A DNA stretch of 31,395 nt from a virus, in IMG/VR virus record IMGVR_UViG_3300043433_000036, positions 1 through 31,395 of that record; one strand, 5' to 3'. Below, one piece after another: positions 10,764 to 29,605 of this stretch. A program made the translations under genes and the position numbers. How positions within the stretch are numbered: the stretch's first letter is position 1; every line of letters begins with the position of its first letter. The notes below the pieces were generated by a model. That model worked only from the letters and a program-made list of their open reading frames with translations, was not told the DNA's origin and ran no database searches.

Positions 10764-12386
10764 ATGATAGGAATCTTTATTGATACGCTTGCGCTTGGAG
10801 ACACAATTGCTGCAATTCCAGCCTGCAAAAAGATCGCAAAAGCTTATGATAATGAAGAGGTTCATATCATAACAAATCATCCATACTTATTTGAAGACCA
10901 TCCTTCATTTTCACATATTTCTAGACCAGAATCAACCAATCTAAATCACTTTCGTAAAGTACATCGAATGTTTATGCCACTTGTTGGTAAATCATATCAA
11001 TTACATAACGGTGAAACTATAGAATGGAGATATTCTAACATGGACATCCGACAATTTCATGCTGTATCACAGGGATTTGCCCTGACTGAACAAGAAATGG
11101 AAACTGATTTGTATATTGAAAGAAAACGTGAGCTGCCAGTCAGCTCCTATGTGATGATACATCCAACATATACTTGGGAATCAAGAACATGGGCTCAAGA
11201 AAAATGGCAAGCTTTGATAGACAAATTATTCGACGCAGGAATTCCAGTCGTGGCCATTGGTAGAAGTGGTAAAGAACAAGGTTTCTTTAACGTTGACAAG
11301 CCAGTGATGGATTTACATATTAGATATGGTGTTAATTTGTTAGATGATCCAGATAATGATGTAGCTGAATTAAGATGGATGATGAATAATCAAGCCATGT
11401 GCGTGGTTACAATGGACTCTGGCATTTTACACGTAGCTGGAACCACTGATGTTAACATTATTCAATTAGGTAGTTCAATCGATCCAAAATTAAGAGCACC
11501 ATACAGACACGGATCTCAAGCTTACAAATATCAATATGTAAAAGGCTCTTGTGATTTGTTTTGTTCGTCTAACATGAAATACAATGTTAAAGTACATGGA
11601 TCTATTCATGGAGTTCCACCTCAAGTTTATTGTTTAGAAGGAAAACCAACGTTTGAATGTCATCCTTCAGTTGATCAAGTATTCGAAAAAGTTTTATCAC
11701 ATTATAGAGTTAAAGCCAAAATCAAATTAGTTCATTTGTTATTAGAAGATGATTTAGATCAAGAAAGACAAGCAAAATCTATAGCTTCGATTTCAGAATT
11801 ATCACGCATAGGAGTTGAGTATATTCAGGTTTGGAATAAGCGATGGACTGAAACACCACCAAGAGAAACTTTTACTCGACCAGATCAATACGACACTATA
11901 CCGATTAGACCAGGACATTATGGTGCCTTTAGAGCTTTTGCTGATGCAACAATCGAACACTTCACGGAAGATACAGACTTTTTTATTGTTTGTGAAGGTG
12001 ATGCTATGCTAGAAGTTGATTTAAAAGAAGCATTACAAAAAATAGACAGAGCGTCTGAATCAATTATTGAAAATGACATTGCTTACTTTTCATTTGGTTC
12101 TAGATTCTTATTAGAAGGTGATGAATTGCAAAGTGAAACCTTACAAAAGATAGAAGACACTCATTTGGTTAATAGAATCATAGGTGCTCAGATGATTATG
12201 TTTCCACAGAAAATTAGAAGATATTTAATAGACAGATACAAACATGCAACATGGGATGGAGCAGATATATTTTTAAACGATATATTCTTTGCTAAATTTA
12301 ATCTAGGTATGTTTGAAGAATCAATGGCTACACAATTAAGTGGAATTTCAGCCATAGAATCACAATACAGAGAATTCAATAATTAA
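10764..12386 (+). CDS. Two-domain glycosyltransferase (GT9-like plus C-terminal transferase-like domain)
   Basis: 540 residues. The N-terminal ~310 residues begin MIGIFIDTLALGDTIAAIPA, the donor-loop signature of GT9/heptosyltransferase-like enzymes, and continue with HPTYTWESRTW, a VVAIGRSGKE strand, and TMDSGILHVAGTT, the conserved GT9 nucleotide-binding element. Residues about 320-540 form a second domain (VHLLLEDDLDQERQAKSI, ADATIEHFTEDTDFFIVCEGDAM) resembling GT-A-type transferases with an EGD acidic motif. The protein probably transfers sugars to a virion or host surface glycan. It is followed 2 bp later by a second glycosyltransferase. Confidence 0.75.
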   Translation: MIGIFIDTLALGDTIAAIPACKKIAKAYDNEEVHIITNHPYLFEDHPSFSHISRPESTNLNHFRKVHRMFMPLVGKSYQLHNGETIEWRYSNMDIRQFHAVSQGFALTEQEMETDLYIERKRELPVSSYVMIHPTYTWESRTWAQEKWQALIDKLFDAGIPVVAIGRSGKEQGFFNVDKPVMDLHIRYGVNLLDDPDNDVAELRWMMNNQAMCVVTMDSGILHVAGTTDVNIIQLGSSIDPKLRAPYRHGSQAYKYQYVKGSCDLFCSSNMKYNVKVHGSIHGVPPQVYCLEGKPTFECHPSVDQVFEKVLSHYRVKAKIKLVHLLLEDDLDQERQAKSIASISELSRIGVEYIQVWNKRWTETPPRETFTRPDQYDTIPIRPGHYGAFRAFADATIEHFTEDTDFFIVCEGDAMLEVDLKEALQKIDRASESIIENDIAYFSFGSRFLLEGDELQSETLQKIEDTHLVNRIIGAQMIMFPQKIRRYLIDRYKHATWDGADIFLNDIFFAKFNLGMFEESMATQLSGISAIESQYREFNN

Positions 12387-12388
12387 TT

Positions 12389-14632
12389 ATGAAGATTTTA
12401 TATTTAGCCCCACATTTATCAACAGGAGGCATGCCAGCATTTTTACTTAGACGCATTCAAGAAATGCAAGAGTCGACTCAACATGAAATTTATGTTGCAG
12501 AATGGACCAAATACTCAGAAGCTTATACAGTACAAAGAGATCAAATAGAAAAGTTATTAGACAAAGATCATTTTATTTCTTTAGGCGACTTAGGTGAGGA
12601 TGAAGAAACGCATTTCAATAACAGAGTAAAGATAGTTGAAAAGTGTTATGAATGGGGTATTGACATCATTCACATCGATGAAATTCCAGAAGGCTTTGAT
12701 AGCTTTAATCCATTTCCAGCAAAATTACAAGAACACTTATATCATACGGACCATCCTTGGAGAATTGTAGAAACTTGCCACAACATTTGGTTTAATCCTT
12801 CGACAATGAAGAAGATTCTGCCCGACGGTTTTGCAATGGTTTCACCTGAACATGAACTTAAAACATTCAAAGACATAGATGTGCCTAAGTCTCTGATTAC
12901 TTTTCCATGGACTAAGTCTAAGTCTGTTATTCTCAAAGACCGCAAGGAGATTTTAGGAGATTTTGGTTACCGTACCCTAGGAGAATTTCATATTATCAAT
13001 ATAGGCTTATGGACCCAAGGTAAAAACCAAAAGTACGCCATAGACATCGCGCGCACGTTGTATGCAAAATATGGCCACACATACCAATTTCATTTTGTTG
13101 GTAACCAAGCCTCAAACTTCTCTGAGTACTGGCAACCACTAATGAATGACCTACCACCTAACTGTAAAGTCTGGGGTGAACGCGAAGACACCTCGACGCT
13201 CTTACAAATGAGCGATGTCATGCTATTCACATCAAACTGGGAATGCAATCCGATAGTTTTAGCAGAGGCCGCATCTCTAGGTATACCAACCATGGCTTAT
13301 AACCTACCGCAATACGGCGACCAATGGACTCGAACCCTAACACACTTAACAGGTAACGCTAACAAAGATGCTGAGTCTGTAATACAACTTTGTTTCGATA
13401 AAAAACATAGACAGCATCAGCCTTCAAACTCTGAGTTTGCTCTACAACACGAAGCACTTTACAAGCAATTAATAACAAGCCCAAAATCTAGAAGATCTGT
13501 ACAAATGCAAGACAAAAAGCAATGGCACGTGGAAATAAACCGAGGCATAAAATTCTATAACGACTCAGACAAAAAATGCACGGTTAAGTTTAAAAACGCG
13601 CGCACTCAAGATGTGCTTTGTACTATGGTTTTACCTAGTAATCATTGGGGAGCGCCAGCACAAAAATTCTTCGTTCCTTGGCAAATTGACTTTGAGTTTG
13701 AAGATCAAGAACCAGAAACATGGACGCAAGATCTAACTAATAAAGTTGTTAACATAGAATTTGGTAGCTCTTCTTTAGGTGATACATTAGCTTTTATAGA
13801 AGCTGTTGTGGCCTTTAAAGAAAAACACCAACTAAGTAAAGTTAATTTACTAACATATAAGAATTGGCTTTTTGATTGGGCTTACTATAATAAAAAAGGC
13901 ATTTATGCTATTCAACCAAGTACTCAATTACCAAACTGCGATGCTACTTATGAAATAGGTGTACATATGGCTAATGTAGGCGAAGGACCTGCTTGGTTTG
14001 AAGATAAAAATCCTAGAGATTGGCGCAAAATATACCTAGGAGATATTGCAACAGATGCGCTTGGTTTAGAACCTATTGGTGAAATTAGACCTCAATTATC
14101 TTTTATGGATCTAGGACGCCCTGTCGCTGGTAAATACATTGTTATAGCTACTCAAAGTACAGCGCAAGCTAAATACTGGAATAATCCAACAGGTTGGCAA
14201 GAAATAGTAGACTGGCATAAAAGTCAAGGCTACAAAGTCTATATAGCCTCAAGCGAAGAAAATGGTTTTATGGGTAACTTTTATCCTAAAGGAGCTCAAA
14301 GATTGCCATCTGATTTGTTAGTCGTTGCTAATTATATTAGACACGCTGATTATTTTATGGGTATTTCAAGTGGTTTGAGTTGGTTTGCATGGGCTTTAAA
14401 CGCAAAGATCGTTTTAATCTCAGGCTTTACTCCAGAAATATGTGAATTTACAGATAAAACTTTAAGAATTATAGACAAAACAGTTTGTAATTCATGTTGG
14501 GAATGGGATCACTTTGACAGAAATAAATGGATGTGGTGCCCTAAACATGAAATGACAGACCGACAATTTGAATGTACAAAATCAATATCAGGCAATGATG
14601 TGATTGCAAAAATTAAAACATGGACAAAATAA
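12389..14632 (+). CDS. Two-domain glycosyltransferase: GT4-like plus TibC/heptosyltransferase-like with Cys finger
   Basis: 747 residues. The N-terminal half begins MKILYLAPHLSTGGMPAFLL, a GT-B start of the GT4 type, and includes ADVMLFTSNWECNPIVLAEA-like motifs (SDVMLFTSNWE...EAASLGIPT). The C-terminal half has FGSSSLGDTLAFIEAV, GISSGLSWFAWAL and a cysteine cluster CNSCW...WMWCPKH...FEC. That cluster matches, from memory, the iron-binding finger of autotransporter O-heptosyltransferases of the TibC type. It may glycosylate phage proteins. It overlaps the epimerase gene by 13 bp. Confidence 0.75.
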   Translation: MKILYLAPHLSTGGMPAFLLRRIQEMQESTQHEIYVAEWTKYSEAYTVQRDQIEKLLDKDHFISLGDLGEDEETHFNNRVKIVEKCYEWGIDIIHIDEIPEGFDSFNPFPAKLQEHLYHTDHPWRIVETCHNIWFNPSTMKKILPDGFAMVSPEHELKTFKDIDVPKSLITFPWTKSKSVILKDRKEILGDFGYRTLGEFHIINIGLWTQGKNQKYAIDIARTLYAKYGHTYQFHFVGNQASNFSEYWQPLMNDLPPNCKVWGEREDTSTLLQMSDVMLFTSNWECNPIVLAEAASLGIPTMAYNLPQYGDQWTRTLTHLTGNANKDAESVIQLCFDKKHRQHQPSNSEFALQHEALYKQLITSPKSRRSVQMQDKKQWHVEINRGIKFYNDSDKKCTVKFKNARTQDVLCTMVLPSNHWGAPAQKFFVPWQIDFEFEDQEPETWTQDLTNKVVNIEFGSSSLGDTLAFIEAVVAFKEKHQLSKVNLLTYKNWLFDWAYYNKKGIYAIQPSTQLPNCDATYEIGVHMANVGEGPAWFEDKNPRDWRKIYLGDIATDALGLEPIGEIRPQLSFMDLGRPVAGKYIVIATQSTAQAKYWNNPTGWQEIVDWHKSQGYKVYIASSEENGFMGNFYPKGAQRLPSDLLVVANYIRHADYFMGISSGLSWFAWALNAKIVLISGFTPEICEFTDKTLRIIDKTVCNSCWEWDHFDRNKWMWCPKHEMTDRQFECTKSISGNDVIAKIKTWTK

Positions 14633-15492
14633 CAGTAGTAACAGGTGGATGTGGCTTTATAGGACATCATTTAGTTAAAAGACTCGTAGATATTGGTAAG
14701 ACCGTAGTGGTTTTAGACAATTTATCTACAGGCAGATTTACAGATATGCCAGAAGGAGCTACATTGTATAAAATGGATTTAACAGTAGATGCATTTCCTA
14801 CTTTGGAAAATGTAGATGCTATTTATCATTTAGCTGCAACAACCTCAGTTGAAGAGTCTCTTTCTAATGCGCCTAAATACAAGGCTAATATTCTATCAGC
14901 TACTAAAAGATTACTAATCTGGGCTGCTGATATAAATGCTAGAAGAATCGTAATGGCTTCAACAGCTGCAGTTTATGGTGATCCTTCTATTATACCAACG
15001 CATGAAGGTGTACCAGTGAATCCAATGTCACCTTATGCTGAGTATAAATGGAGAGCTGAAAATCATTTAGCGCACTGTCACGGTAAAGGCTTAACAACTT
15101 CTTGCTTAAGATTCTTTAATGTTTTTGGAGAAGGACAACCAACTTCAGGTTCTTATGCGCCTGCTGTGGCTAGATTCATGACTCAGTATGAAAACTTTGA
15201 ACCAATTACAGTAACTGGCGATGGTTCTCAAACCAGAGATTATATCTATGTTGGAGATGTAGTTGCAGCCTTAATCATAGCCATGGCTAGAGATAATTTC
15301 TTTATTTTAAATATAGGTTCTGGTGAAGAATTAACTATTTTAGAAATAGCAGAAGCTTTTGGTGGCGAAATTCAATTTGTACCAAAGAGAAATGAACCAT
15401 ATCAGTCTTGTGCTGATATTAAGATGGCAACTATTGAATTAGGTTGGACACCATCAAAAAATATAATTACGTGGATTAATAAGAATAAATAA
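14620..15492 (+). CDS. NAD-dependent nucleotide-sugar epimerase/dehydratase (SDR, GalE-like)
   Basis: 290 residues. The Rossmann motif TGGCGFIG (residues 8-15) binds NAD. ASTAAVYGD provides the catalytic Ser/Thr region and YAEYK the Tyr and Lys. DLTVDAFPTLENVDAIYHLAA and SCLRFFNVFGEGQ are typical of UDP-glucose 4-epimerase-like enzymes. It is somewhat shorter than GalE (about 330), so the C-terminal substrate lobe is compact. It probably makes the activated sugar used by the two adjacent transferases, with which it is cotranscribed. Confidence 0.88.
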   Translation: MDKITVVTGGCGFIGHHLVKRLVDIGKTVVVLDNLSTGRFTDMPEGATLYKMDLTVDAFPTLENVDAIYHLAATTSVEESLSNAPKYKANILSATKRLLIWAADINARRIVMASTAAVYGDPSIIPTHEGVPVNPMSPYAEYKWRAENHLAHCHGKGLTTSCLRFFNVFGEGQPTSGSYAPAVARFMTQYENFEPITVTGDGSQTRDYIYVGDVVAALIIAMARDNFFILNIGSGEELTILEIAEAFGGEIQFVPKRNEPYQSCADIKMATIELGWTPSKNIITWINKNK

Positions 15493-16243: not shown

Positions 16244-16993
16244 ATGAAGAAAATAAAACTATACGAAGAATTCTTAAATGAATCTAACGAAAATAAAGTT
16301 AGATCCATGTTAATTCAGTTTTTACACGAAGGTGTAAAAATGGTCTCAATTGACTCTATTAATGAGGGTTTAGTTGACAAAGCTCAATACGAATTGGACT
16401 TATTAATGAAAAATTCAGATGGAACGCCTGTTATTGGTGAGTTTGTACCTGAAGTTATGGCATTAGTAAAGAAATTTGCTGATTCAGGTCAAAGTGGAGG
16501 TTCAGCACCTTTCACGGCTCAAATTATTACACAAGTTCTACAAAAATTATTAGCACATGAACCACTAGGTGAAGGTATTATGGGAACTGATGACGAATGG
16601 ACTGATTGTTCAATATATGAAGACGCTGAAGAAGGAACTGGAACTTTTCAGAATAAAAGACTTAGTTCGGTTTTCAAAGAAGGTAAAGAAGGTGCTGCAT
16701 ATTATTTGGATGCAATTGTATTTACGCCTGAAGGAAAAGATTACGGTTTTACTGGTAGAGTTGCAGTAACTGAAGGTAGTGAAGAACAAATTAGCTCTTG
16801 TCAATGTATCAAATCATTTCCATTTGCACCTAAAACATTCAAGATCATTGTTAAAGAAAAAGAATATCGTAAATTAGAAGATGGTTCTTTAGTTGAAGAA
16901 GAAGGTGGAGGCTGGTGGGAAAGCTGGTTAGCAGACCCTAAACAATTAGATGAAGTTTGGGAATATTACGATAAAAAAGAAAATAAGAAATAA
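16244..16993 (+). CDS. Tagged cargo protein 1 (putative packaged protein)
   Basis: 249 residues with leader MKKIKLYEEFLNE followed by S. Two more cleavage-like sites lie close behind: FLHE (26-29) before G and SINE (38-41) before G, so the mature protein probably starts near residue 42. The body has a Gly/Ser-rich stretch (SGQSGGSAPF) near residue 86 and acidic strands, ending in a W-rich helix (GGGWWESWLADP). I do not recognise the fold. A TATATAG motif lies just before the start. Its TAA overlaps the next ATG by one base. Confidence 0.8.
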   Translation: MKKIKLYEEFLNESNENKVRSMLIQFLHEGVKMVSIDSINEGLVDKAQYELDLLMKNSDGTPVIGEFVPEVMALVKKFADSGQSGGSAPFTAQIITQVLQKLLAHEPLGEGIMGTDDEWTDCSIYEDAEEGTGTFQNKRLSSVFKEGKEGAAYYLDAIVFTPEGKDYGFTGRVAVTEGSEEQISSCQCIKSFPFAPKTFKIIVKEKEYRKLEDGSLVEEEGGGWWESWLADPKQLDEVWEYYDKKENKK

Positions 16994-17292
16994 TGAAACA
17001 TGTAAAAGTATTTGAAGACTTCTTAAATGAAGCTGAAGATGGAATGGTAACATTAAACGTTACTATTTCTAATATAGATCAAGAAACAGCAAATGATTTT
17101 TTAAAAATGTTTGCTTTCATGGAATGGACTGGAGCTGTAGGAGCTGGTAGAAGCTTTAAAGCGTACTTTGATGGAGACGGTCATTTCAGACCAAAAATCA
17201 AAGTCGAAGGTATTGATTTAAAAGATGTTGACTTAACAGGAGATTACGATGATGAAAAAACCGATACTCTCGACCTAGGGTTTGGTGCATAA
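16993..17292 (+). CDS. Tagged cargo protein 2
   Basis: 99 residues with leader MKHVKVFEDFLNE before A. After trimming, an 86-residue acidic domain remains with pattern strand-helix-strand: MVTLNVTISNI, NDFLKMFAFMEW, FKAYFDGDGHFRPKIKV. This resembles a small ferredoxin-like alpha/beta sandwich. Function unknown. It is coupled to the gene before it by a TAATG overlap. Confidence 0.8.
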   Translation: MKHVKVFEDFLNEAEDGMVTLNVTISNIDQETANDFLKMFAFMEWTGAVGAGRSFKAYFDGDGHFRPKIKVEGIDLKDVDLTGDYDDEKTDTLDLGFGA

Positions 17293-17306
17293 ATAAAATT
17301 ATAATT

Positions 17307-17846
17307 ATGAAACACATAAAATTATTTGAAGAATTCGTGACTGAAAAGAAAAAGGTTTATGATTACGGTTGTGCAATGTTGTACTTTGAATTTCCTGAGA
17401 TGGAAAACTTACACAAGCAAATTGACGAAGAAGATGTTTTCGTAGATCCTAAGGATTCTACATTCGGCTTAGAAACTGAGCCACATTGTACTTTGCTTTA
17501 TGGTTTACATGATGATGTAAAACTAGAAGTAATTGAAAATATAGCAAAGAATTTTGCATTTGGTAATTGTACTATCACGAATCCATCTCTTTTTGAAAAT
17601 GAAAAGTTTGATGTGTTGAAATATGATGTTGAAGGACCAAGTTTACATGATTGTAATGCAGAACTTAGTAAATTACCACATACTACAGATTATCCAGACT
17701 ATCACCCACATATGACAGTTGCTTATTTAAAATCTGGTTTAGGTAAGAAATACACTGAAATGTTAGATGACACTAAAAAAGAGCTTACACCTAAATATAT
17801 AGTGTACAGCCAACCAGATGGTACAAAAACAAAGATCGACCTATAA
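17307..17846 (+). CDS. Tagged cargo protein 3: 2H phosphoesterase-like
   Basis: 179 residues with leader MKHIKLFEEFVTE. The body has the two signature motifs of the 2H phosphoesterase superfamily: HCT at 60-62 (in EPHCTLLYG) and HMT at 135-137 (in HPHMTVAYL), 75 residues apart. This family (LigT, 2',5'-RNA ligase-like, CPDase, phage Acb1) cleaves 2',5'- or 2',3'-cyclic phosphodiesters. Delivered with phage DNA, it could destroy cyclic nucleotide alarm signals or help RNA repair; that is inference. Its stop overlaps the start of the next gene. Confidence 0.85.
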   Translation: MKHIKLFEEFVTEKKKVYDYGCAMLYFEFPEMENLHKQIDEEDVFVDPKDSTFGLETEPHCTLLYGLHDDVKLEVIENIAKNFAFGNCTITNPSLFENEKFDVLKYDVEGPSLHDCNAELSKLPHTTDYPDYHPHMTVAYLKSGLGKKYTEMLDDTKKELTPKYIVYSQPDGTKTKIDL

Positions 17847-18094
17847 TGAAACACGTAACTAAATTCAATGAATTCGTAAATGAAGCAGAAGAAAGAGACA
17901 CTTTAGCTGAATTAAATGAAATGACTCTAGGTCAACTTGAAAGAATTGCAGATTATGCAAACATGATTAAAGACAGAATGACCGGTGGTGAACAATTAGA
18001 ATCGTGGATGTATTCTCAATTAACAGTTTCTTTAGAAAATTTAAATGCAGTGCACGACGCAATGGATGGTAATGATGACAAGGTTGAAAAATAA
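17846..18094 (+). CDS. Tagged cargo protein 4
   Basis: 82 residues with leader MKHVTKFNEFVNE before A. The 69-residue body is acidic and helical (TLAELNEMTLGQLERIADYANMIKD..), with no cysteine or membrane segment. It starts on the last base of the preceding stop codon. Function unknown; a two- or three-helix bundle is likely. Confidence 0.78.
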   Translation: MKHVTKFNEFVNEAEERDTLAELNEMTLGQLERIADYANMIKDRMTGGEQLESWMYSQLTVSLENLNAVHDAMDGNDDKVEK

Positions 18095-18103
18095 TTAAAA
18101 GCA

Positions 18104-18661
18104 ATGCAATACGTAAAACTATACGAAGATTTCTTAAACGAAGCTAAACCAGGACCAGATCCATACATGAAAGGTTTAAGCGACAAAACTAAAGAAGAAA
18201 AAGAGGAGCAGATGAAAAAGCAAGCTGAAATGGATGACGATGATGATTCAGCTTATAAAGAATTACCGGGTGATAAAGAGGCTCAGGAAAAAGGTCAAGT
18301 TAAAACTTCTAAACACACTAAATCATATCATGAATTATACGGTGATAAAGAAGAGAAAAACGAATCTTTTTTAAACGAAGAAGAACAATCAACCGACAGA
18401 AGTGCAATTGACGATGACGCTATCGAAACAGGTTTAAAAACCAAATCTGAAGAAACTGGAGTTCCTATTGGAATTCTTAGAGCTGTAATGAGAAGAGGCT
18501 TAGCCGCTTGGAAAACAGGTCATAGACCAGGAGCAACCCAACAACAATGGGGATATGCGAGGTGTAATAGTTTTTTAACAGGTCAACCTGGAACATGGGG
18601 TGGAGCTGATAAAGATTTAGCTAAAGAAGCTAGAAAGGCTGGATTTAATCCTAAAAAATAA
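18104..18661 (+). CDS. Tagged cargo protein 5 with DUF5824-like C-terminal domain
   Basis: 185 residues with leader MQYVKLYEDFLNE before A. A second copy of the cleavage-like site, SFLNE at 88-92, separates an acidic Lys/Asp/Glu linker from the C-terminal domain. That domain (TGVPIGILRAVMRRGLAAWKTGHRPG...QQWGYARCNSF...GTWGGADKDLAKEAR) resembles a domain I associate with T4-like phage proteins (DUF5824), function unknown. The protein may be cut twice, freeing a ~93-residue C-terminal domain. An HNH gene is inserted directly after it. Confidence 0.78.
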   Translation: MQYVKLYEDFLNEAKPGPDPYMKGLSDKTKEEKEEQMKKQAEMDDDDDSAYKELPGDKEAQEKGQVKTSKHTKSYHELYGDKEEKNESFLNEEEQSTDRSAIDDDAIETGLKTKSEETGVPIGILRAVMRRGLAAWKTGHRPGATQQQWGYARCNSFLTGQPGTWGGADKDLAKEARKAGFNPKK

Positions 18662-18695
18662 ATGTTAGAGTTTATACATTTATAACTAAACTATT

Positions 18696-18704
18696 AGATA
18701 TATA
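18696..18704 (+). promoter_or_regulatory. AGATATATA box before the HNH gene
   Basis: AGATATATA at 18696-18704, 4 bp before the ATG at 18709, matching the layout at 4858/4871 and 8702/8715. Cargo genes on either side lack this box. Confidence 0.45.
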
Positions 18705-18708
18705 TTAT

Positions 18709-19380
18709 ATGAAACACAAACATCATATAATACCCAAACATATGGGAGGATCTAATGAATCTGAAAATATCATAGAATTAAGCATCGAAGAACATGCCGA
18801 AGCTCATAGAATTTTATGGGAGAAACATGGTAAGAAACAAGACTGGTTAGCTTGGAAAGGCCTTTCAGGTATCATTAATAAAGAAGATATAACCAAAGAA
18901 ATTTTATCAGACGCTGGTAAAAAAGGAGGATCTAATGGAAAGGGAGTAACTGGTAATAGAAAGAACGGTGGAATTATTAATTGGGAAAAGAATAAAGATA
19001 AAATCTTACAACTTTTAAGAGAAAACGGTAAGAAATACGGACATTTAGGTGGTGCTAAAGGAGATTGGATTTGGATTAATGACGAAAATGAAGAGATGAA
19101 AATATTAAAAGATGATTCTATACCAGAAGGTTGGAATCGTGGCAGATTAGAAATGAACTCATTAACTAGACAAAAGATAAAAAATTCTACAGTTGGTAAA
19201 ATAAATAAAGGTCCTAAAACAAAAGAACACAAAGAAAAGATGTCAGTTTGGCGAAAAGGGCGAAAGTGGTACCATGACACTATATCTTTTCGATCTTCTC
19301 AATTTTCTTTAGAAGAAATCATTCCAGATGGATGGGTTATCGGAAGAGGTAAAATTAATATGCCAAAAAGAAAAATTTAA
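18709..19380 (+). CDS. HNH homing endonuclease inserted in the cargo array
   Basis: 223 residues. The N terminus HKHHIIPKHMGGSNESENI...LSIEEHAEAHRIL is a classic HNH core (His pair, central Asn, final His). The second half has NUMOD-like DNA-binding units: WIWINDENEEMKILKDDSIPEGW, TKEHKEKMSVWRKGRK and FSLEEIIPDGWVIGRGK. The MKHK start is a chance resemblance to the cargo leader; the rest of the leader is missing. Its insertion splits cargo genes 5 and 6, and cargo 6 has a degenerate cleavage site. Confidence 0.88.
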   Translation: MKHKHHIIPKHMGGSNESENIIELSIEEHAEAHRILWEKHGKKQDWLAWKGLSGIINKEDITKEILSDAGKKGGSNGKGVTGNRKNGGIINWEKNKDKILQLLRENGKKYGHLGGAKGDWIWINDENEEMKILKDDSIPEGWNRGRLEMNSLTRQKIKNSTVGKINKGPKTKEHKEKMSVWRKGRKWYHDTISFRSSQFSLEEIIPDGWVIGRGKINMPKRKI

Positions 19381-19384
19381 AATA

Positions 19385-19843
19385 ATGAAATACATCAAAT
19401 TATACGAAGAATTTGTAGCTGGCAATAAAATCGAATGCGATAATTGTGGTTGGACATGGAAATTAGAAGATGGTGGTCATGATTTATATACATGTCATAA
19501 ATGTTTTCATGATAATAGTTCAATTATGAGCGAAGCTTTTATTTTAAGAGACTTAGAAGACAAATACGGAATTGATTTAGATTTATATGATAATGGTAAG
19601 TTTTTAGAGCTGTCAAGAATAGTTATTCCTAAAGATAAAAGAGGTGAAGGCATTGGATCAGAGATCATGAAACAAATTAATGATTACGCAGACTCTAAAG
19701 GTCTTAAAATATACTTAACACCATCTAAAGATTTTGGAGCTAGCTCAGTCTCTAGATTGGAAAAGTTTTACAAAGATCATGGTTTTGTGAAAAACACAGA
19801 CAAGAGTGAAACAAGAAATACAATGGTAAGATTACCAAAATAA
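19385..19843 (+). CDS. Tagged cargo protein 6: zinc ribbon plus GNAT acetyltransferase-like domain
   Basis: 152 residues from the ATG at 19385, chosen because it begins MKYIKLYEEFVAG; an upstream in-frame ATG at 19328 would run 53 bp into the HNH gene. The expected E at the cut site is replaced by G. Next comes a zinc ribbon: CDNCGWTW...YTCHKC (four Cys, about residues 19-41). The C-terminal ~90 residues carry the GNAT acetyl-CoA motif RIVIPKDKRGEGIGSEIMKQ and a late FYKDHGFVKN. It could acetylate a host target after injection; substrate unknown. Confidence 0.8.
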   Translation: MKYIKLYEEFVAGNKIECDNCGWTWKLEDGGHDLYTCHKCFHDNSSIMSEAFILRDLEDKYGIDLDLYDNGKFLELSRIVIPKDKRGEGIGSEIMKQINDYADSKGLKIYLTPSKDFGASSVSRLEKFYKDHGFVKNTDKSETRNTMVRLPK

Positions 19844-19844
19844 T

Positions 19845-20402
19845 ATGAAGAAAGTTAAATTATTTGAACAATTCTTAAATGAATTTGAAATACCTTCTAA
19901 CAAATGGATCGACATGGATCTTAAGAAGATTGACAAAGAAGGTATGGAATCAATCTGGGCAATGTACACTAAAACTTATTTAGATGCAGGTATGGATTTA
20001 TCAGCTGATGATTGGGAAGAAATGCAAGCAAAATACAAAGCAACTGCCTTAAAAGATGTAGACTCAGATCATCAAGCAGATGCATTTATCATATACAAAC
20101 CTACTAAATGGGGTAATAAAATTGCTTTATTAGGCACTAATGGCAAAAAAGAAGCTAAATCTGACATAGTTAAAAAACTTTTACAGTTAGTTAACACTAA
20201 AGGTTGGTTTATTGAAGCTTCTTTAAGAATGGAAGAGTTGCTTAGTCAAGCCAAAGCTCCTGTTATTACAGATAAAGAAATGATTGAAGATGTTGTTGGT
20301 TTAGACAAAAAGCCTGAGTTTACACAAGATGGTTACTACACAAGATTTTTATCAAAAGCAGGTAAAAGAATCACTAAAAAAATATACGGTAAATTAAAAT
20401 GA
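19845..20402 (+). CDS. Tagged cargo protein 7
   Basis: 185 residues with leader MKKVKLFEQFLNE before F. The body is alpha/beta: a helical first part (MESIWAMYTKTYLDAGMDL), strands with ADAFIIYKPTKWGNKIALLG, and a C-terminal DGYYTRFLSKAGKRITKKIYG. The arrangement vaguely recalls acetyltransferase-like folds but no clear acetyl-CoA loop is visible. It starts 1 bp after cargo 6 and overlaps cargo 8 by 4 bp (ATGA). Confidence 0.78.
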   Translation: MKKVKLFEQFLNEFEIPSNKWIDMDLKKIDKEGMESIWAMYTKTYLDAGMDLSADDWEEMQAKYKATALKDVDSDHQADAFIIYKPTKWGNKIALLGTNGKKEAKSDIVKKLLQLVNTKGWFIEASLRMEELLSQAKAPVITDKEMIEDVVGLDKKPEFTQDGYYTRFLSKAGKRITKKIYGKLK

Positions 20403-21118
20403 AATTAGTTAAATTATTTGAAGAGTTTATTAACGAAGGTGTACACGATAAAAACATCTTAAAAGCTATTTTTATGGCAGGTGGACCGGGTTCTGGTAAA
20501 TCTAGAGTTGTTAGAGAACTTTTCGATATACCTGAAGGAGGTATTCAGTCCGTTTCATATTCAACGGGGCTTAAAGTTATTAATTCAGATCCTGCTTTTG
20601 AACTTGAACTTCAAAAAATAGGTGTTAATCCTAAAGATTTAGCAACAATGGACACAGATGAGTTTGATAGTCTTACACAAGGTGAAGCATCTCCAAGAGG
20701 TAAAGCTAAAAAAATAACAATGTCTAGACAAAAATTATACATGAAAGGCCGTTTAGGTATGTTAATTGATGGCACCGGAGATGATTACAAGAAAATTCAA
20801 TCTAGAAAAGAAGCCATTGAAAAACTAGGTTATGATGTATATATGATTTTTGTTAATACTTCTCTTGAAGTGGCATTACAAAGAAACGCAGCGAGATCTA
20901 GATCAATTCCAGACGAATTAGTAAAAGAAATTTGGCAGTCTGTACAAGATAATATTGGTCACTTTCAAGGTTTATTCGGTGGACAAAACATGATTATCAT
21001 AGATAATTCTTTAACTGGGACTGCTCATATCAAACAAATGGAAGGCGCTATAGCCAAATTACTTAGAAAACCTGTACAAAATCACATTGGTAAACAGTGG
21101 ATTAAGGCAAATTCTTAA
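20399..21118 (+). CDS. Tagged cargo protein 8: P-loop (zeta-toxin/AAA-like) kinase
   Basis: 239 residues with leader MKLVKLFEEFINE before G. The Walker A motif GGPGSGKS lies at 28-35. Further family features are NSDPAFE (a substrate Asp-like position), MLIDGTGDD, and VYMIFVNTSLEVALQRNAARSR, the LID-type arginine stretch. This resembles zeta-toxin/polynucleotide-kinase-like P-loop kinases in T4-like phages. Likely substrates are nucleotides, RNA ends or UDP-sugars. Delivered early it could modify host RNA or metabolites; that is inference. A terminator follows 26 bp downstream. Confidence 0.82.
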   Translation: MKLVKLFEEFINEGVHDKNILKAIFMAGGPGSGKSRVVRELFDIPEGGIQSVSYSTGLKVINSDPAFELELQKIGVNPKDLATMDTDEFDSLTQGEASPRGKAKKITMSRQKLYMKGRLGMLIDGTGDDYKKIQSRKEAIEKLGYDVYMIFVNTSLEVALQRNAARSRSIPDELVKEIWQSVQDNIGHFQGLFGGQNMIIIDNSLTGTAHIKQMEGAIAKLLRKPVQNHIGKQWIKANS

Positions 21119-21143
21119 AAAACACATATTTTTAAAAATAAAT

Positions 21144-21175
21144 GCTCAAATATTTTTTTATTTGGGCTTTTTTTT
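21144..21175 (+). terminator. Terminator (cassette copy 3)
   Basis: GCTCAAA (21144-21150) pairs with TTTGGGC (21161-21167, one G-U), then a T run that merges into the promoter at 21177. It ends the first half of the cargo operon. Confidence 0.8.
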
Positions 21176-21176
21176 G

Positions 21177-21198
21177 TATATTTACATTATAATTAAAA
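21177..21198 (+). promoter_or_regulatory. Candidate promoter, TATATTTAC / TAATTAAAA type (copy 3)
   Basis: TATATTTAC at 21177-21185 and TAATTAAAA at 21190-21198, with the conserved 13-bp register. It precedes the nucleotidase ATG at 21207. Confidence 0.6.
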
Positions 21199-21206
21199 AC
21201 AAGAAG

Positions 21207-21659
21207 ATGAACAAGAAAATAGTTTATATCGATTTAGACGGAGTAATGGTTGATTTAGAAGGCCACGCAATCGAAAGACACGGACCAGATGCAGTTAGAC
21301 ATTTAGGTAGATTAACATCAGTAGATAAAGAGTTGTTTGAGAATCCTGAACCTATCTCTGGAGCTCTAGATGCTGTTAAAACACTAATGGAACAGTATGA
21401 TGTGTATTTCTTAAGCACAGCGCCATGGTCAAATGCAGAGTCTTGGAGCTCTAAACGCAGATGGGTTCAAAAACACTTGGGTAAATTAGCACACAAAAGA
21501 CTTATACTTTCTCACAGAAAAGATCTTTTAATGGGTGATTATCTTATTGATGACAGACCTAATAATGGTGCAGCAGAATTCAAAGGTCAATGGATTCAAT
21601 TTGGCCAACCTGAATTTAAAAATTGGGAGCAAGTTTTAAATTACTTAATAATAAAATAA
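21207..21659 (+). CDS. HAD-family 5'(3')-deoxyribonucleotidase-like phosphatase
   Basis: 150 residues from the ATG at 21207, which follows the promoter; an earlier in-frame ATG at 21087 would read through the terminator and promoter. Motif I is YIDLDGVMVDLE (nucleophile and general acid Asp), motif II LSTAPW, and a late DYLIDDRPNN gives motif IV. This matches phage/bacterial 5'(3')-deoxyribonucleotidases, which dephosphorylate dNMPs. It lacks the cargo leader and has its own promoter, so it is likely a cytoplasmic enzyme acting during infection. Confidence 0.88.
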   Translation: MNKKIVYIDLDGVMVDLEGHAIERHGPDAVRHLGRLTSVDKELFENPEPISGALDAVKTLMEQYDVYFLSTAPWSNAESWSSKRRWVQKHLGKLAHKRLILSHRKDLLMGDYLIDDRPNNGAAEFKGQWIQFGQPEFKNWEQVLNYLIIK

Positions 21660-21669
21660 TATATAGACT

Positions 21670-22092
21670 ATGAAAACAGTAAAATTATTCGAACAATACG
21701 TAAATGAAAGTTTAATCTTTGATGATGGAACTACAGATATTACACAAGCATCTGAAATATTAAAAGACGCTTTAGAAAAAGAAAAACCAGGTTACATCTC
21801 TTTAAGTAAAGGTGTTTTTGGTAATGATACTATCATGCTTTTAGTTTCTTTTGAACCTAAAACAGAATGGTCTAATGGATATGTAGAGAATTCTAATTAC
21901 TTTAGAATGGCTATTTACAAAGATGGCAAAATGGAAGTTTTCACACAATCTTTATATGAGCCAGGAAAACAAGTATCTTATGAAACTCGTTTGAAAATCA
22001 AATTTAGAAAAGCAACTGCAAAATCTATGAAAGATGCTGCTGATAGAGCTGTTAAATTTGTTAAAGAAGTAAAAAAAGCACTAGGTAAATAG
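21670..22092 (+). CDS. Tagged cargo protein 9
   Basis: 140 residues with leader MKTVKLFEQYVNE before S. The body has helix-strand-strand character: SEILKDALEKEKPG, GNDTIMLLVSFEPKTEW, YFRMAIYKDGKMEVF, then a long basic C-terminal helix (KATAKSMKDAADRAVKFVKEVKKAL). Function unknown. It begins 10 bp after the nucleotidase stop, with a TATATAG motif before the start. Confidence 0.78.
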   Translation: MKTVKLFEQYVNESLIFDDGTTDITQASEILKDALEKEKPGYISLSKGVFGNDTIMLLVSFEPKTEWSNGYVENSNYFRMAIYKDGKMEVFTQSLYEPGKQVSYETRLKIKFRKATAKSMKDAADRAVKFVKEVKKALGK

Positions 22093-22093
22093 C

Positions 22094-22396
22094 ATGAAAC
22101 ACACTAAATTATTCGAACAATTCATAACTGAAAAGAAATCAAGTTATCAAGTTTATCATAGAAGCTATACATCAGCGGTTGACACTGCTTTAGAGTATGC
22201 TGAAGCTCAAGGTTTTACTTATGATAAAGAAGAAACTGCGACCAAAATAGGTATGGGTCCTAAAAGACCAGGTGATGGTTTTACAAACAGATTTAATATC
22301 ACGCTTTTTAAAGATGGTAAAGAACAAAAGAAAGCCCTTCAAATTTCAATATATGGAATGGGCGATAAATACGAACTAAACGCATATATCTCATAA
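22094..22396 (+). CDS. Tagged cargo protein 10
   Basis: 100 residues with leader MKHTKLFEQFITE before K. The body is basic with a helix (SYTSAVDTALEYAEAQ) and beta strands (NRFNITLFKDGKEQKKALQISIYG), like a small alpha/beta domain. The pattern of strands resembles cargo 9. It starts 1 bp after cargo 9 and its stop overlaps the start of cargo 11 by one base. Confidence 0.78.
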   Translation: MKHTKLFEQFITEKKSSYQVYHRSYTSAVDTALEYAEAQGFTYDKEETATKIGMGPKRPGDGFTNRFNITLFKDGKEQKKALQISIYGMGDKYELNAYIS

Positions 22397-23541
22397 TGAA
22401 AAAAGTAAAACTATTCGAACAGTTTCTAAATGAAGAAACCTCATTTCCAGCTCAATTTGAAATTGGAGAACCAGTATCATTCATAACAGCCCCTGGCGAT
22501 GATCAAAGATGGGGATCAATTGTTAAAGTATCATTCACAAAAGCAAAAGTTTTCTATGATATATTAGATGATTACACATCAACTGTGATTGGTAACATTG
22601 ATTCAGTGTTTGTGAAAACATTAAGAAGCAATATAAAATTAGAAGAACCAACCAATGAGTCGGTAAACGTTAAATATTTTGAACAATATTTAAATGAAGT
22701 AACTCAACACTCTGTTTCAGGCAATTCTGGCAGAACTTATACAACATTAGATAACTCAAAATATGAGTTGAAAAAAGATGTTAAAGATGCTAAAATCGGT
22801 GACTACGTCGATGTAATTTTACCAAAAGGTACTATTATCACAAATCTTCCAGGCGGTGTATTTGCAAATCACAAAGATCTTAAAGACAAATATTGTACAG
22901 GTTATAAAGCTGCTAAATGGCATGATAAATTTGGAGTTGCGATTAGAACAATGCCAGATACTTTAGAAGCTATTGAAAATAATTCTAAAATTTTAGAATC
23001 TAAATATGATGGTAATATTGCAGGAGATGCTGCAGAATATATTGCTAAAGAATTATCACATTATGTTAAAGGAATCATTGACCAATCAAATGATAAACAA
23101 ACATACTTCCATTTAAAAGACAAATCATATAAAAATAAAGTTATTAAAACTTTAAAGGATATTTATGGTTTAGATGCTCAAGATGGTGGAACTCAATTCT
23201 CACCTTCACCGACTATCAAATTTGACAATGATGTAATATTAGAAGCTATCGTTAATGAAGCTAAAGATGCTACTAGAGAAGAAATCATGGATTTGATGGA
23301 AACTAAATATAAAATTAGATTTGTTAGAACTTCTGAAGAATTTGATGGCGAAAAAGATGGTATTTGGATTGCTGGCGATAACGGAGAAGAATTAAGCGGT
23401 AACAAAATATTTGATTATTACAACAAGAGCGCTAAATATAAAAACGGTGTACTTAAGAACGTTGTAGATGCTATTGAGAAAAAAGGTTGGTGGTTTTCTT
23501 GGAATGATCCAGGAACAATGATGATTTGGCCAAAAAATTAA
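22396..23541 (+). CDS. Tagged cargo protein 11 with two leaders (putative polyprotein)
   Basis: 381 residues, the largest cargo. Leader MKKVKLFEQFLNE is followed by a ~75-residue SH3-like domain (FEIGEPVSFITAPGDDQRWGSIVKV). A second leader-like segment, VNVKYFEQYLNE, lies at residues 90-101, and a third cut-like site, AIVNE before AKD, at 284-288. Cutting at all three would release units of about 88, 187 and 93 residues. The last begins AKDATREEIMDLM and ends WWFSWNDPGTMMIWPKN. The layout suggests fusion of separate cargo genes. Functions of the units are unknown. Confidence 0.78.
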   Translation: MKKVKLFEQFLNEETSFPAQFEIGEPVSFITAPGDDQRWGSIVKVSFTKAKVFYDILDDYTSTVIGNIDSVFVKTLRSNIKLEEPTNESVNVKYFEQYLNEVTQHSVSGNSGRTYTTLDNSKYELKKDVKDAKIGDYVDVILPKGTIITNLPGGVFANHKDLKDKYCTGYKAAKWHDKFGVAIRTMPDTLEAIENNSKILESKYDGNIAGDAAEYIAKELSHYVKGIIDQSNDKQTYFHLKDKSYKNKVIKTLKDIYGLDAQDGGTQFSPSPTIKFDNDVILEAIVNEAKDATREEIMDLMETKYKIRFVRTSEEFDGEKDGIWIAGDNGEELSGNKIFDYYNKSAKYKNGVLKNVVDAIEKKGWWFSWNDPGTMMIWPKN

Positions 23542-23547
23542 TAAGAT

Positions 23548-23835
23548 ATGAAACACATTAAACTATACGAAGAATTTGTTAACGAGGCTCAAATTGGAGA
23601 TAAATTAACTAAGAAATTTACAGAATTGACTGGAATTTCAACATGGGACAAAGTAACTTTAAAATCAGAGTCTGGAACTTGGACCGTTGTAAGATTATGG
23701 GCACCAAAAGATAATGGAGGTATGAATCCTGGATTACATATTGAATTAACTAAAGGTAGTTCTAGAGAACATTTTCAAGCAATGGATGAAGATGGAACTT
23801 TAACAGAATTTGGAAAAGGACTTAAAAAGAAATAA
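23548..23835 (+). CDS. Tagged cargo protein 12
   Basis: 95 residues with leader MKHIKLYEEFVNE before A. The body shows beta strands (WDKVTLKSESGTWTVVRLWA, GLHIELTKGSSREHF) like a small beta-barrel or OB-type fold. Function unknown. The stop overlaps the next ATG by one base (TAATG). Confidence 0.78.
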   Translation: MKHIKLYEEFVNEAQIGDKLTKKFTELTGISTWDKVTLKSESGTWTVVRLWAPKDNGGMNPGLHIELTKGSSREHFQAMDEDGTLTEFGKGLKKK

Positions 23836-24200
23836 TGAAACACATGACAAATTTTAATTCATTTGTTAACGAATCTGCAAAGTCAGATAAATTAACACCG
23901 TTGTTAATAAATGCTATTGACAAAGTTGACAATTCTCTTTCTTATACAGATTTTGCAATTGCGATTGCAAACATCATCAAAGACGAATACGGTTCTCACA
24001 ATATTAAACCATTTATGGCTGTTCTACAAAAAGAATTAAGCGTTAAAGAATCAGAAGAATTAGAAGAATCAAAAGACTCTGATACATTCGTTGGAAATCC
24101 AAGCGAAGACTCAAGAATGGTAGACATTAGAGCTTTTAGAGGCGCAGTTAAAGATCTTACTGATTTTATTGACGATAAAATTAAAGAAACACAAAAATAG
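23835..24200 (+). CDS. Tagged cargo protein 13
   Basis: 121 residues with a divergent leader MKHMTNFNSFVNE before S. The body is helical and acidic with an E/S-rich linker (KESEELEESKDSD) and a final helix (AFRGAVKDLTDFIDDKI). Function unknown. It is the last of the contiguous array. Confidence 0.75.
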   Translation: MKHMTNFNSFVNESAKSDKLTPLLINAIDKVDNSLSYTDFAIAIANIIKDEYGSHNIKPFMAVLQKELSVKESEELEESKDSDTFVGNPSEDSRMVDIRAFRGAVKDLTDFIDDKIKETQK

Positions 24201-27958: not shown

Positions 27959-28708
27959 ATGAAGAAAATTAAACTATTTGAAGAATTCAATAGCGTAGAA
28001 CCTATACAAGAATCGTTTTATAGATTACCTAAAGATGTAATCGGAAATGAATTATATGTTGTAAACCAATCAATACAGTCTTTGTATAGCGGAGCAGCTG
28101 CAGGCAATGATGTTTCGCCAAAAGAGATTGATCTTATCATTAAAAATTTACAACAAATCAAATCATCTGTTAAGAAATTTAACAAAGCTGAAGAGATTGA
28201 AGGTACAGTGTATGAATCTGTAATAGTTGAAGGCGCAGCTAAACAATTCGATGCAGATTTCAATGACATGGTTAAAAATGTTAAATCTGGTTTTGGATGG
28301 ATCGATCCTGATTATGTACAAGAGACTTGGGAAAATACAAGTGATATTGACTTTGAATCTGTTAAAGTTGAAATCTACAAAAGATTAATCAAAGCCAATC
28401 TATTATGGCTTTCTGCAAATGATGGTGAAAGTAAAGGTAAACAAGTTAAATCTTTAAAGGAAATAGGTGTTAAAGAATCATTAGTTAATGAGGCATTTGA
28501 CGTTAAAGTAAGTCTTAGACATGCTAAAGATGCTATTGGACTTTTCAATGATATGTTTATCAAATACGGTAAAAGACCATCGTCGGATGTATTTTCTTTT
28601 AAAGAAAAAGACGCAGCTATAGATTTCGTACAAATGTTAGTTAAGAATTTAAACATCCCTATGGGTGAAATCGAAGCTGATGATAATGTTATTAAAAATT
28701 TAAAATAA
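27959..28708 (+). CDS. Tagged cargo protein 14 with several cleavage-like sites
   Basis: 249 residues with leader MKKIKLFEEFNSV; the cut site is shifted to PIQE (15-18) before S. Two further sites, VIVE (88-91) before G and SLVNE (174-178) before A, would split the protein into units of about 73, 87 and 71 residues. The first unit is helical (LIIKNLQQIKSSVKKF); the last (FDVKVSLRHAKDAIGLFNDMF) looks alpha/beta like cargo 2. It lies away from the main array but beside virion-type genes. Functions unknown. Confidence 0.78.
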   Translation: MKKIKLFEEFNSVEPIQESFYRLPKDVIGNELYVVNQSIQSLYSGAAAGNDVSPKEIDLIIKNLQQIKSSVKKFNKAEEIEGTVYESVIVEGAAKQFDADFNDMVKNVKSGFGWIDPDYVQETWENTSDIDFESVKVEIYKRLIKANLLWLSANDGESKGKQVKSLKEIGVKESLVNEAFDVKVSLRHAKDAIGLFNDMFIKYGKRPSSDVFSFKEKDAAIDFVQMLVKNLNIPMGEIEADDNVIKNLK

Positions 28709-28712
28709 AGAC

Positions 28713-29258
28713 ATGATTAAATCAATTAATGAAAATGCTGTTGCTCCAAACGTAAACAATGGTTTGAGACAACCTGTTGTTTTATCAGGAGATTCGGTTA
28801 AATTACTAACAGAAAGATTAGGTGACGAATACACCGCACATTATTTCTACAATGCTGCCGCAAATTGGTGTTTAGGCGCAGGTTACAAAAAAGCTGCTGC
28901 ATTCTTTACAGCAGAATCTGCTAATGAATTACAACACGCTTTAAAATTACAAAAATATCTAGTAGATTGGAATGTTTTACCAGTTGTACCTAAAGTAGAA
29001 ACACATACAGATTTTGGTAATTTGCCAGAAATCATCGAAAGATCATATAATTTAGAGTATGATTTATATCAAATGTACATTAAAAATTCACAAGAATTAT
29101 TTACAACTGATTTAGCTACATTTGATTTCTTACAAGAATTTAGACAAGGTCAAACTGAATCAGTAGCAGAATACTCTGATTTATTAAACGCTTTACAATT
29201 AATCGATATCGATAAAAGATTAGATCTTTTACATTTCGAAGAATTATACTTAGGATAA
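28713..29258 (+). CDS. Ferritin-like / Dps-like four-helix protein
   Basis: 181 residues. The body is a helical bundle with ferritin-type ligands: GDEYTAHYFYNAAANW, then ESANELQHALKLQKYL (E-x-x-H), a middle YNLEYDLYQMY, and QGQTESVAEYSDLL. These fit a di-iron ferroxidase site. Such proteins store iron or protect DNA from peroxide. The N terminus MIKSINE before N ends in an I-x-E site, so it might also be packaged. It lies between two proteins with cleavage-like sites. Confidence 0.78.
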   Translation: MIKSINENAVAPNVNNGLRQPVVLSGDSVKLLTERLGDEYTAHYFYNAAANWCLGAGYKKAAAFFTAESANELQHALKLQKYLVDWNVLPVVPKVETHTDFGNLPEIIERSYNLEYDLYQMYIKNSQELFTTDLATFDFLQEFRQGQTESVAEYSDLLNALQLIDIDKRLDLLHFEELYLG

Positions 29259-29272
29259 TATACAATACAACT

Positions 29273-29605
29273 ATGAAACCACATGTTAAAAACTTAGAAG
29301 ATTTTATTGCTGAGTATCAAGCTCCATTTAATCCATCGTCTGCTGCAAATATTGTAATTGGTGGTGTACAAGGCGCTGGTAAAGTACCAACAACTAGTAC
29401 GGGTGCTGATTCTGAAAATAGCATTATACCTTTAACGCAACAAGATCCTGTTTTACAATACGGCACATGGTCACAAACTGCAACTGGTGTACAACCAAAC
29501 GGTGCATATCCAGATATATTATTAGCACAAGCTGCTTTACACGGTATGTCTCCAGCTGAATACTTAGCACACTACGGTCACTCTACCGAAGGACAAGATA
29601 AATAA
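29273..29605 (+). CDS. Virion-associated protein with FIAE cleavage-like site
   Basis: 110 residues. NLEDFIAE (7-14) before Y closely matches the end of the T4 leader (QEFIAE). The mature part is low in charge and rich in G, A, T, S, P and Q (SSAANIVIGGVQGAGKVPTTSTG), ending AALHGMSPAEYLAHYGHS. It looks like a small structural or decoration protein. A strong terminator follows. Confidence 0.7.
   Translation: MKPHVKNLEDFIAEYQAPFNPSSAANIVIGGVQGAGKVPTTSTGADSENSIIPLTQQDPVLQYGTWSQTATGVQPNGAYPDILLAQAALHGMSPAEYLAHYGHSTEGQDK

Follow-up and report, generated by a model that had tools for sequence, protein, structure and literature searches.

A fragment of 31,395 bases from a jumbo phage, catalogued as an IMG/VR-type virus record and referred to here as the window, carries an array of tightly packed genes, frequently overlapping by one base, between positions 16244 and 24200. 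Thirteen open reading frames (ORFs) of this array begin with a common leader of 13 residues, MK-x-x-[KT]-x-[FY]-x-x-[FY]-[LIV]-x-E, with the consensus MKHIKLFEEFVNE (Table 1). Comparison with phage T4 and with related phages indicates that the leader is very probably a T4-type capsid targeting sequence operating in a jumbo phage, by which cargo proteins would be packed into the head, cut and injected.

Leader residues are strongly constrained. Position 7 is F or Y and position 11 is V, L or I in 13 of 13 ORFs, position 10 is F in 12 and Y in one, and position 13 is E in 12. A degenerate DNA form of the leader matched 8 times in the window versus 0 times in 100 dinucleotide shuffles, and a profile scan at 12 bits or more detected 14 start sites versus 1 in 16,958 reversed-protein windows. 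The 13 cargo bodies are mutually unrelated, with a lowest E value of 0.13 among all pairs. Two array genes, one for an HNH homing endonuclease (at 18709) and one for a 5' nucleotidase (at 21207), have no leader and serve as internal controls; the nucleotidase ortholog of the related contig G003 has none either. A preliminary description of the locus is borne out on all these points: it reported 13 leader-bearing ORFs within 8 kb, leaders nearly always ending in [LVI]-x-E, completely different bodies and two leaderless genes. Its count holds for the array and is extended by a 14th, weaker leader at 27959 and a leader-like N terminus at 29273. The sole leader of the 13 without E13, on an acetyltransferase gene starting at 19385 (not at 19328 as in a mechanical ORF list), is not noise but belongs to a zinc-ribbon class with [ILM]xE behind the ribbon. 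Leader codons vary synonymously across window genes (TTT/TTC, CAC/CAT, AAT/AAC, TTA/CTA); thus, constraint acts on the protein and not on a repeated DNA element. With residues constant and codons variable, we rejected the leader as a DNA repeat or translation signal.

The helicase gene adjoining the array at 24539 identified relatives of the window phage. An 80-kb contig (G001) has the identical helicase and a 256-kb contig (G003) one of 87% identity; further relatives are contigs of 150 kb (G006) and 246 kb (G007) and the uncultured huge phage LR756500 (462 kb). More distant relatives are Sphingomonas phage PAU, Tenacibaculum phages and Prevotella Lak phages, and these named relatives make a Bacteroidota host plausible. 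Leader genes stand beside the same helicase in relatives while array content has been gained, lost, split and fused, marking the array as a hot spot of cargo turnover behind the tag.

Correspondence with the T4 signal and candidate cut sites

In T4, the first 10 residues of IPIII alone suffice for packaging. Residues 4 and 7 contribute most to targeting, and processing relies on residues 8 and 10; a D at position 10 abolishes cutting yet leaves targeting intact (PMC9026906). GmrSD enzymes are inhibited by the injected T4 proteins Ip1-3 (PMC12373910); hence, this type of system is already known, and the T4 precedent of a short packaging tag and injected proteins cited in the preliminary description is documented (PMC9026906, PMC12373910). 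Aligned from the cut end, T4 Y4-Q-E-F7-I8-A-E10 corresponds residue by residue to leader F7-E-E-F10-V11-N-E13, pairing the T4 targeting residues Y4 and F7 with leader [FY]7 and F10, and the processing residues I8 and E10 with [LIV]11 and E13. In the wider set of 321 distinct leader proteins, 291 end the leader with E13. These 291 have F or Y at position 7 in 288 cases and at position 10 (P4) in 287, and P3 is I, V or L in 277 and A in 3; V occurs at P3 besides L and I in the window as well. P1' is mostly A, S, K, E or G. A leader-based motif recovered the two MKTYQEFIAE genes of T4 plus one starting MKTFKEFIKE, and its N-terminal matches in G003 numbered 31 versus 3.8 expected.

Like T4 IPI, IPII and IPIII with gp21, the leader system places a short N-terminal propeptide on unrelated bodies. 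It further shares with T4 internal proteins, whose known members are injected anti-restriction proteins, the order aromatic-x-x-aromatic-[ILV]-x-E, an L/I-x-E cut rule and a polymorphic locus (PMC12373910, PMC9026906). T4 has three internal protein genes, whereas the window array has 13, G003 about 25 and one half of a 735-kb phage genome more than 30. Cargo behind the leader also differs from that of T4 in including an anti-Thoeris family member, enzymes, multi-site polyproteins and a zinc-ribbon insertion, and leader phages have a scaffold that is fused to the protease and bears leader-like repeats. SPN3US, a phiKZ-like phage, packages many ejection proteins with its DNA, trimmed after E by a gp21-like protease (PMC10052503). 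Its propeptides are mostly 111-254 residues long (two are of 20 and 24) and are cut at A-x-E with no common short tag reported, in contrast to a 13-residue leader ending in [LIV]xE. The P3 counts above and the leader length therefore do not display the phiKZ/SPN3US-type combination of A-x-E with a long propeptide. DarA, DarB and Hdf of phage P1 are head-associated anti-restriction proteins (PMC12810830). Compared by description, the proposed head-associated anti-defence role is similar. We know of no shared 13-residue leader in the three P1 proteins.

Cargo bodies begin directly after [LIV]xE even when other domains are inserted or fused ahead of them (candidate cuts are marked ↓). The GNAT body of the 19385 protein sits behind a zinc ribbon, while in G003 a 95% identical body comes nearly straight after FINE; the ribbon form has lost E13, and SIMSE↓A immediately precedes the body. 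The zinc-ribbon leader class as a whole has no E13. DUF5824-type bodies behave alike, with FITE↓AEKAKGD right behind the leader in one protein (L061) and a ribbon followed by GESVNE↓AEKAKGD in another (L157). In the 22396 protein, a second leader-like copy, YFEQYLNE↓ (E at about residue 101), and a third site, ILEAIVNE↓AK (E at residue 288), separate domains; the last domain occurs alone behind a leader in L119_6145, and the other parts match separate leader genes of G003. The 17846 body recurs in G003 inside a longer cargo protein, directly after ESLAE↓AE, and a body related to that of 23835 lies inside L127_1597 right after EAIMNE↓S. Near residue 91, the 27959 body contains the site YESVIVE↓G, and the domain behind this site is a stand-alone leader protein in L141_1304. 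In the 16244 protein, residues 47-244 align with residues 7-190 of the solved Tad3 chain (PDB 9b7d, E 6.2e-34), so the solved protein starts at about residue 41, coinciding with DSINE↓GLVDK. Over 28 internal junctions at which a leader-borne domain recurs, [ILVM]xE lies exactly at 14 and within 2 residues at 19, against a background mean of 0.74 per position at offsets greater than 3. A side peak at -4/-5 is due to tandem sites such as ILEAIVNE.

Prohead protease, scaffold repeats and leader distribution

No S77 protease was found in the 31-kb window or the 80-kb G001 contig, both of them fragments without head genes; the protease was therefore sought in, and inferred from, relatives. G003, G006 and G007 each encode one S77 (gp21-type) prohead protease above the Pfam cut-off and one gp23-type capsid protein. 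S77 was also present in 17 of 26 further leader-bearing contigs (72 to 482 kb), including all eight that reach 150 kb or more. Thus, the gp21-like protease proposed as a check in the preliminary description exists in relatives but not in the window fragment itself. In G003 and G006, a portal-like gene is followed by the gene for a small leader protein, then by that for the protease with its fused scaffold-like region and by the capsid protein gene. The small leader protein (MKKLIKTFEQFIFE↓AEA in G003, MKIIKTFEDFITE↓D in G006) occupies the place of T4 gp67 and is referred to as gp67-like, and a 522-residue protein behind the capsid gene also carries the leader. The expectation that leaders would appear in head-core or scaffold genes is borne out by these two predicted head-core proteins, and every computable prediction of the preliminary description held.

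The C-terminal part of the protease ORF consists of 14-residue repeats with YxEYLAE or close variants, matching the leader core. For the strict motif [FY]xx[FY][ILV]xE, the scaffold tops the proteome, holding 6 of 13 copies in G003, 3 of 7 in G006 and 4 of 17 in G007. Wherever the full ORF of a leader-bearing relative was read, it contains 2-14 repeat copies, with 13 in a 482-kb contig and 14 in LR756501 (735 kb), and none were found in the protease ORFs of PTm1, Lak, PAU, MA9V-2, Molly_1 and P-SSM2. Tenacibaculum phage PTm1 resembles the leader phages in head gene order and in its fused protease-scaffold gene, which is annotated as prohead core scaffolding protein and protease and lies beside an annotated portal. 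Unlike them, it showed neither leaders nor YxEYLAE repeats in motif scans. From these sequences we infer that the leader may dock as a stray scaffold repeat, with cargo and scaffold cut by the same rule.

The leader pattern occurs in at least 120 stretches of viral contigs and gave just 17 matches, all single, in 257 Gb of cellular genomes. The dialect of LR756500 is MKYIKEYEEFLxE and that of LR756501 is MIKTFDEFINE, which is short and T4-like. The first 390 kb of LR756501 contain 37 genes with the N-terminal motif versus 9 expected. A T4-like leader is borne by more than 30 genes in half of this genome, one of the largest of any phage (L264-L283). Dialects differ yet retain F..F[LIV]xE, and homologous bodies of distant phages (31-45% identity) keep the leader motif, in only seven pairs, a number below statistics. 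The strict leader DNA pattern gave no match in T4, PAU, PTm1, MA9V-2, Lak, Molly_1, P-SSM2, phiKZ or LR756501, which we do not read as leader absence because the dialects of T4 and LR756501 are shorter than the pattern detects.

Cargo of the window array and its relatives

The 16244 protein scored 78.4 bits for PF25185 (Tad3), against a Pfam cut-off of 27 bits that also applies to PF13563, PF23474 and PF12699. This cargo is of the Tad3 family and, by family, would block Thoeris signalling. Because one tagged protein is of a known immunity-inhibitor type, the array looks like a swappable kit of injected helpers. The 17307 protein matched PF13563 at 29.3 bits and PF23474 (Acb1) at 27.3 bits, the latter just over the cut-off, with an E value of only 0.36 to PDB Acb1, and may be an Acb1-like or a general 2H enzyme; this type has 8 leader-bearing members in the collected set. 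That set comprises 383 leader ORFs, 300 of them distinct, in 138 body clusters, most with no Pfam family. Other bodies include ATP-grasp, methyltransferase, cytidylyltransferase, lysozyme and CHAP proteins. A PADLOC scan of 139 cargo representatives returned marginal matches only, which were unused. The 19845 protein is 72-98% identical over seven contigs, with a leader in all seven; its AlphaFold model (mean predicted local distance difference test score 55) was too weak for use. The HNH gene is probably an inserted mobile gene: in contig L002, the leader genes flanking its position adjoin directly.

Table 1. Leader-bearing genes of the window and leaderless genes within the array (↓, candidate cut)
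Position	Strand	Feature	Evidence
16244..16993	+	Leader (1-13, MKKIKLYEEFLNE↓S), DSINE↓GLVDK site (residue 41), Tad3 Thoeris inhibitor family	PF25185 78.4 bits
16993..17292	+	Leader MKHVKVFEDFLNE↓A, 86-residue body, phrog_10928	Leader-bearing ortholog in G003
17307..17846	+	Leader MKHIKLFEEFVTE↓K, 2H phosphoesterase (2'-5' RNA ligase / Acb1 superfamily)	HCT, HMT motifs; PF13563, PF23474
17846..18094	+	Leader MKHVTKFNEFVNE↓A, 69-residue body	ORF reading
18104..18661	+	Leader MQYVKLYEDFLNE↓A, acidic spacer, second site ESFLNE↓E, DUF5824 body	PF19141 4e-17
18709..19380	+	HNH homing endonuclease, leaderless	phrog_655 1.5e-13
19385..19843	+	Displaced-site leader MKYIKLYEEFVAGN, zinc ribbon, SIMSE↓A, GNAT acetyltransferase	GNAT Pfam matches
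19845..20402	+	Leader MKKVKLFEQFLNE↓F, 172-residue strongly conserved body	Seven-contig comparison
20399..21118	+	Leader MKLVKLFEEFINE↓G, P-loop kinase (Zeta-toxin / AAA_33 / polynucleotide-kinase-like)	PF06414 4e-10, PF13671 2e-7
21207..21659	+	NT5C-type 5' nucleotidase, leaderless	PF06941 4.5e-17; G003 ortholog leaderless
21670..22092	+	Leader MKTVKLFEQYVNE↓S, 127-residue body	phrog_3308, weak match
22094..22396	+	Leader MKHTKLFEQFITE↓K, 87-residue body	Leader homologs in L002, L003, L070
22396..23541	+	Multi-domain cargo, candidate polyprotein, leader FLNE↓	Internal leader-like copy, third site
23548..23835	+	Leader MKHIKLYEEFVNE↓A, 82-residue body	ORF reading, relatives
23835..24200	+	Leader MKHMTNFNSFVNE↓S, 108-residue body	ORF reading
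27959..28708	+	14th, weaker leader MKKIKLFEEFNS..., no E13	Profile 19.2 bits
29273..29605	+	Leader-like N terminus MKPHVKNLEDFIAE↓Y, weak candidate	Direct reading; under profile threshold

Several further leader proteins were seen in relatives. About 17 in G007 (L045-L057) continue from the leader into a common second block, PKLSAKDIFIPRRLKERWDDLLLPYLNKGYTKEQIF, before diverging, and form a multi-copy family dispersed over the 246-kb genome; one G007 leader protein (L055:15331-16140) weakly matches phiKZ internal head proteins (PF12699, 19 bits, below the cut-off of 27). A conserved LEGGAAGHMxHPFDD protein (L022:8205-9485 and homologs) is leader-bearing in jumbo phages and forms the C-terminal half of a leaderless cytidylyltransferase fusion in Microcystis phage Mel-JY01. 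L169:6399-6992 encodes a leader-tagged nucleotidyltransferase of the nicotinamide mononucleotide/cytidylyltransferase type with a GRFQPFHNGH motif, possibly an injected enzyme related to nicotinamide adenine dinucleotide. In the window, a leaderless ferritin-like protein (28713-29258) lies between the two leader-like genes downstream of the array. Just upstream of the array, positions 10764-15492 hold sugar-related genes including a glycosyltransferase of family 9 and, assigned by eye, a second glycosyltransferase-like ORF and an epimerase-like ORF.

Proposed delivery system and its alternatives

Extrapolating from T4 and from the positions of the sites, the aromatic half of the leader, K-L-[FY]-E-x-F, would dock cargo onto the prohead core, probably by mimicking one 14-residue YxEYLAE repeat of the protease-fused scaffold. 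The [LIV]-x-E half would then be cut by the S77 protease at head maturation, freeing cargo within the head to enter the host together with the DNA. Longer array entries would be polyproteins split into separate products by the same protease, and at least some cargo proteins, Tad3 and perhaps the Acb1-like enzyme among them, may disarm defences acting soon after DNA entry. The array is best read, by analogy, as a greatly expanded, modular T4-type internal-protein system that is partly anti-defence.

Several observations weigh against this model. We found no cultured phage with this leader dialect, and the contig of the window itself has no head genes. S77 was not seen in 9 of the 26 further leader contigs, all shorter fragments of under 150 kb, and its presence elsewhere is expected rather than diagnostic because S77 is common in large myophages. 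The resemblance of the scaffold repeat to the leader may stem from its being a helical repeat. Leaders also occur on lysozyme-like and CHAP proteins, potentially tail or lysis proteins, and on a protein beside probable tail genes (G003 40511) that is possibly not head cargo; some tagged proteins need not be injected.

Alternatively, the leader could be a prohead-core tag whose bearers work in the head or its assembly as core filler or in DNA condensation or maturation and are never delivered. Leaders on the gp67-like core proteins and the 522-residue capsid-adjacent protein fit this idea, as does the fate of T4 core proteins, which are cut, some remaining and others leaving as fragments (PMC9026906). 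We nevertheless regard it as improbable, since the cargo (kinase, GNAT, 2H enzyme, Tad3) changes quickly and consists in part of enzymes, and the Tad3 family acts in the host cytoplasm. Less probable still is an address within the cell that is unrelated to the head and points to, for example, a replication compartment, a membrane or a chaperone; many unrelated proteins would also share a short N terminus if it served for import or docking, but this reading is at odds with the residue-level T4 match, protease-type sites at domain junctions, motif copies in the scaffold and the leader on the gp67-like gene. That the common start is a functionless by-product of duplication, recombination or a translation-start element is very improbable, for although cassette exchange at short shared starts predicts the observed tight packing and one-base overlaps, residues stay constant through synonymous codon changes and the motif persists both in the 31-45% identical bodies and across dialects.

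As far as we found, the scale of the targeting-sequence system proposed here, Tad3 behind a targeting tag, the putative polyproteins, the movable cut site and the apparent scaffold mimicry are new. We found no paper on such leader arrays in jumbo phages, which is weak evidence of novelty because most subscription journals lay outside the literature searched. We favour, with moderate confidence, the broader view that widespread jumbo and huge phages (up to 735 kb) rely on a single protease-scaffold system to deliver proteins in general, in which a tag mimicking one scaffold repeat loads dozens of proteins, some of them polyproteins that are split within the head, and provides each phage with a large exchangeable set of injected anti-defence proteins and enzymes. 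Thoeris and CBASS are early-responding bacterial defences, and head-borne inhibitors could act before expression of any phage gene. The leader would offer a testable rule, with the aromatic half addressing cargo and the LxE half releasing it. If the model is true, the leader is a search key by which any jumbo-phage protein behind it becomes a candidate injected effector, and the at least 138 bodies, most with no known family, would be a ready list of anti-defence candidates.

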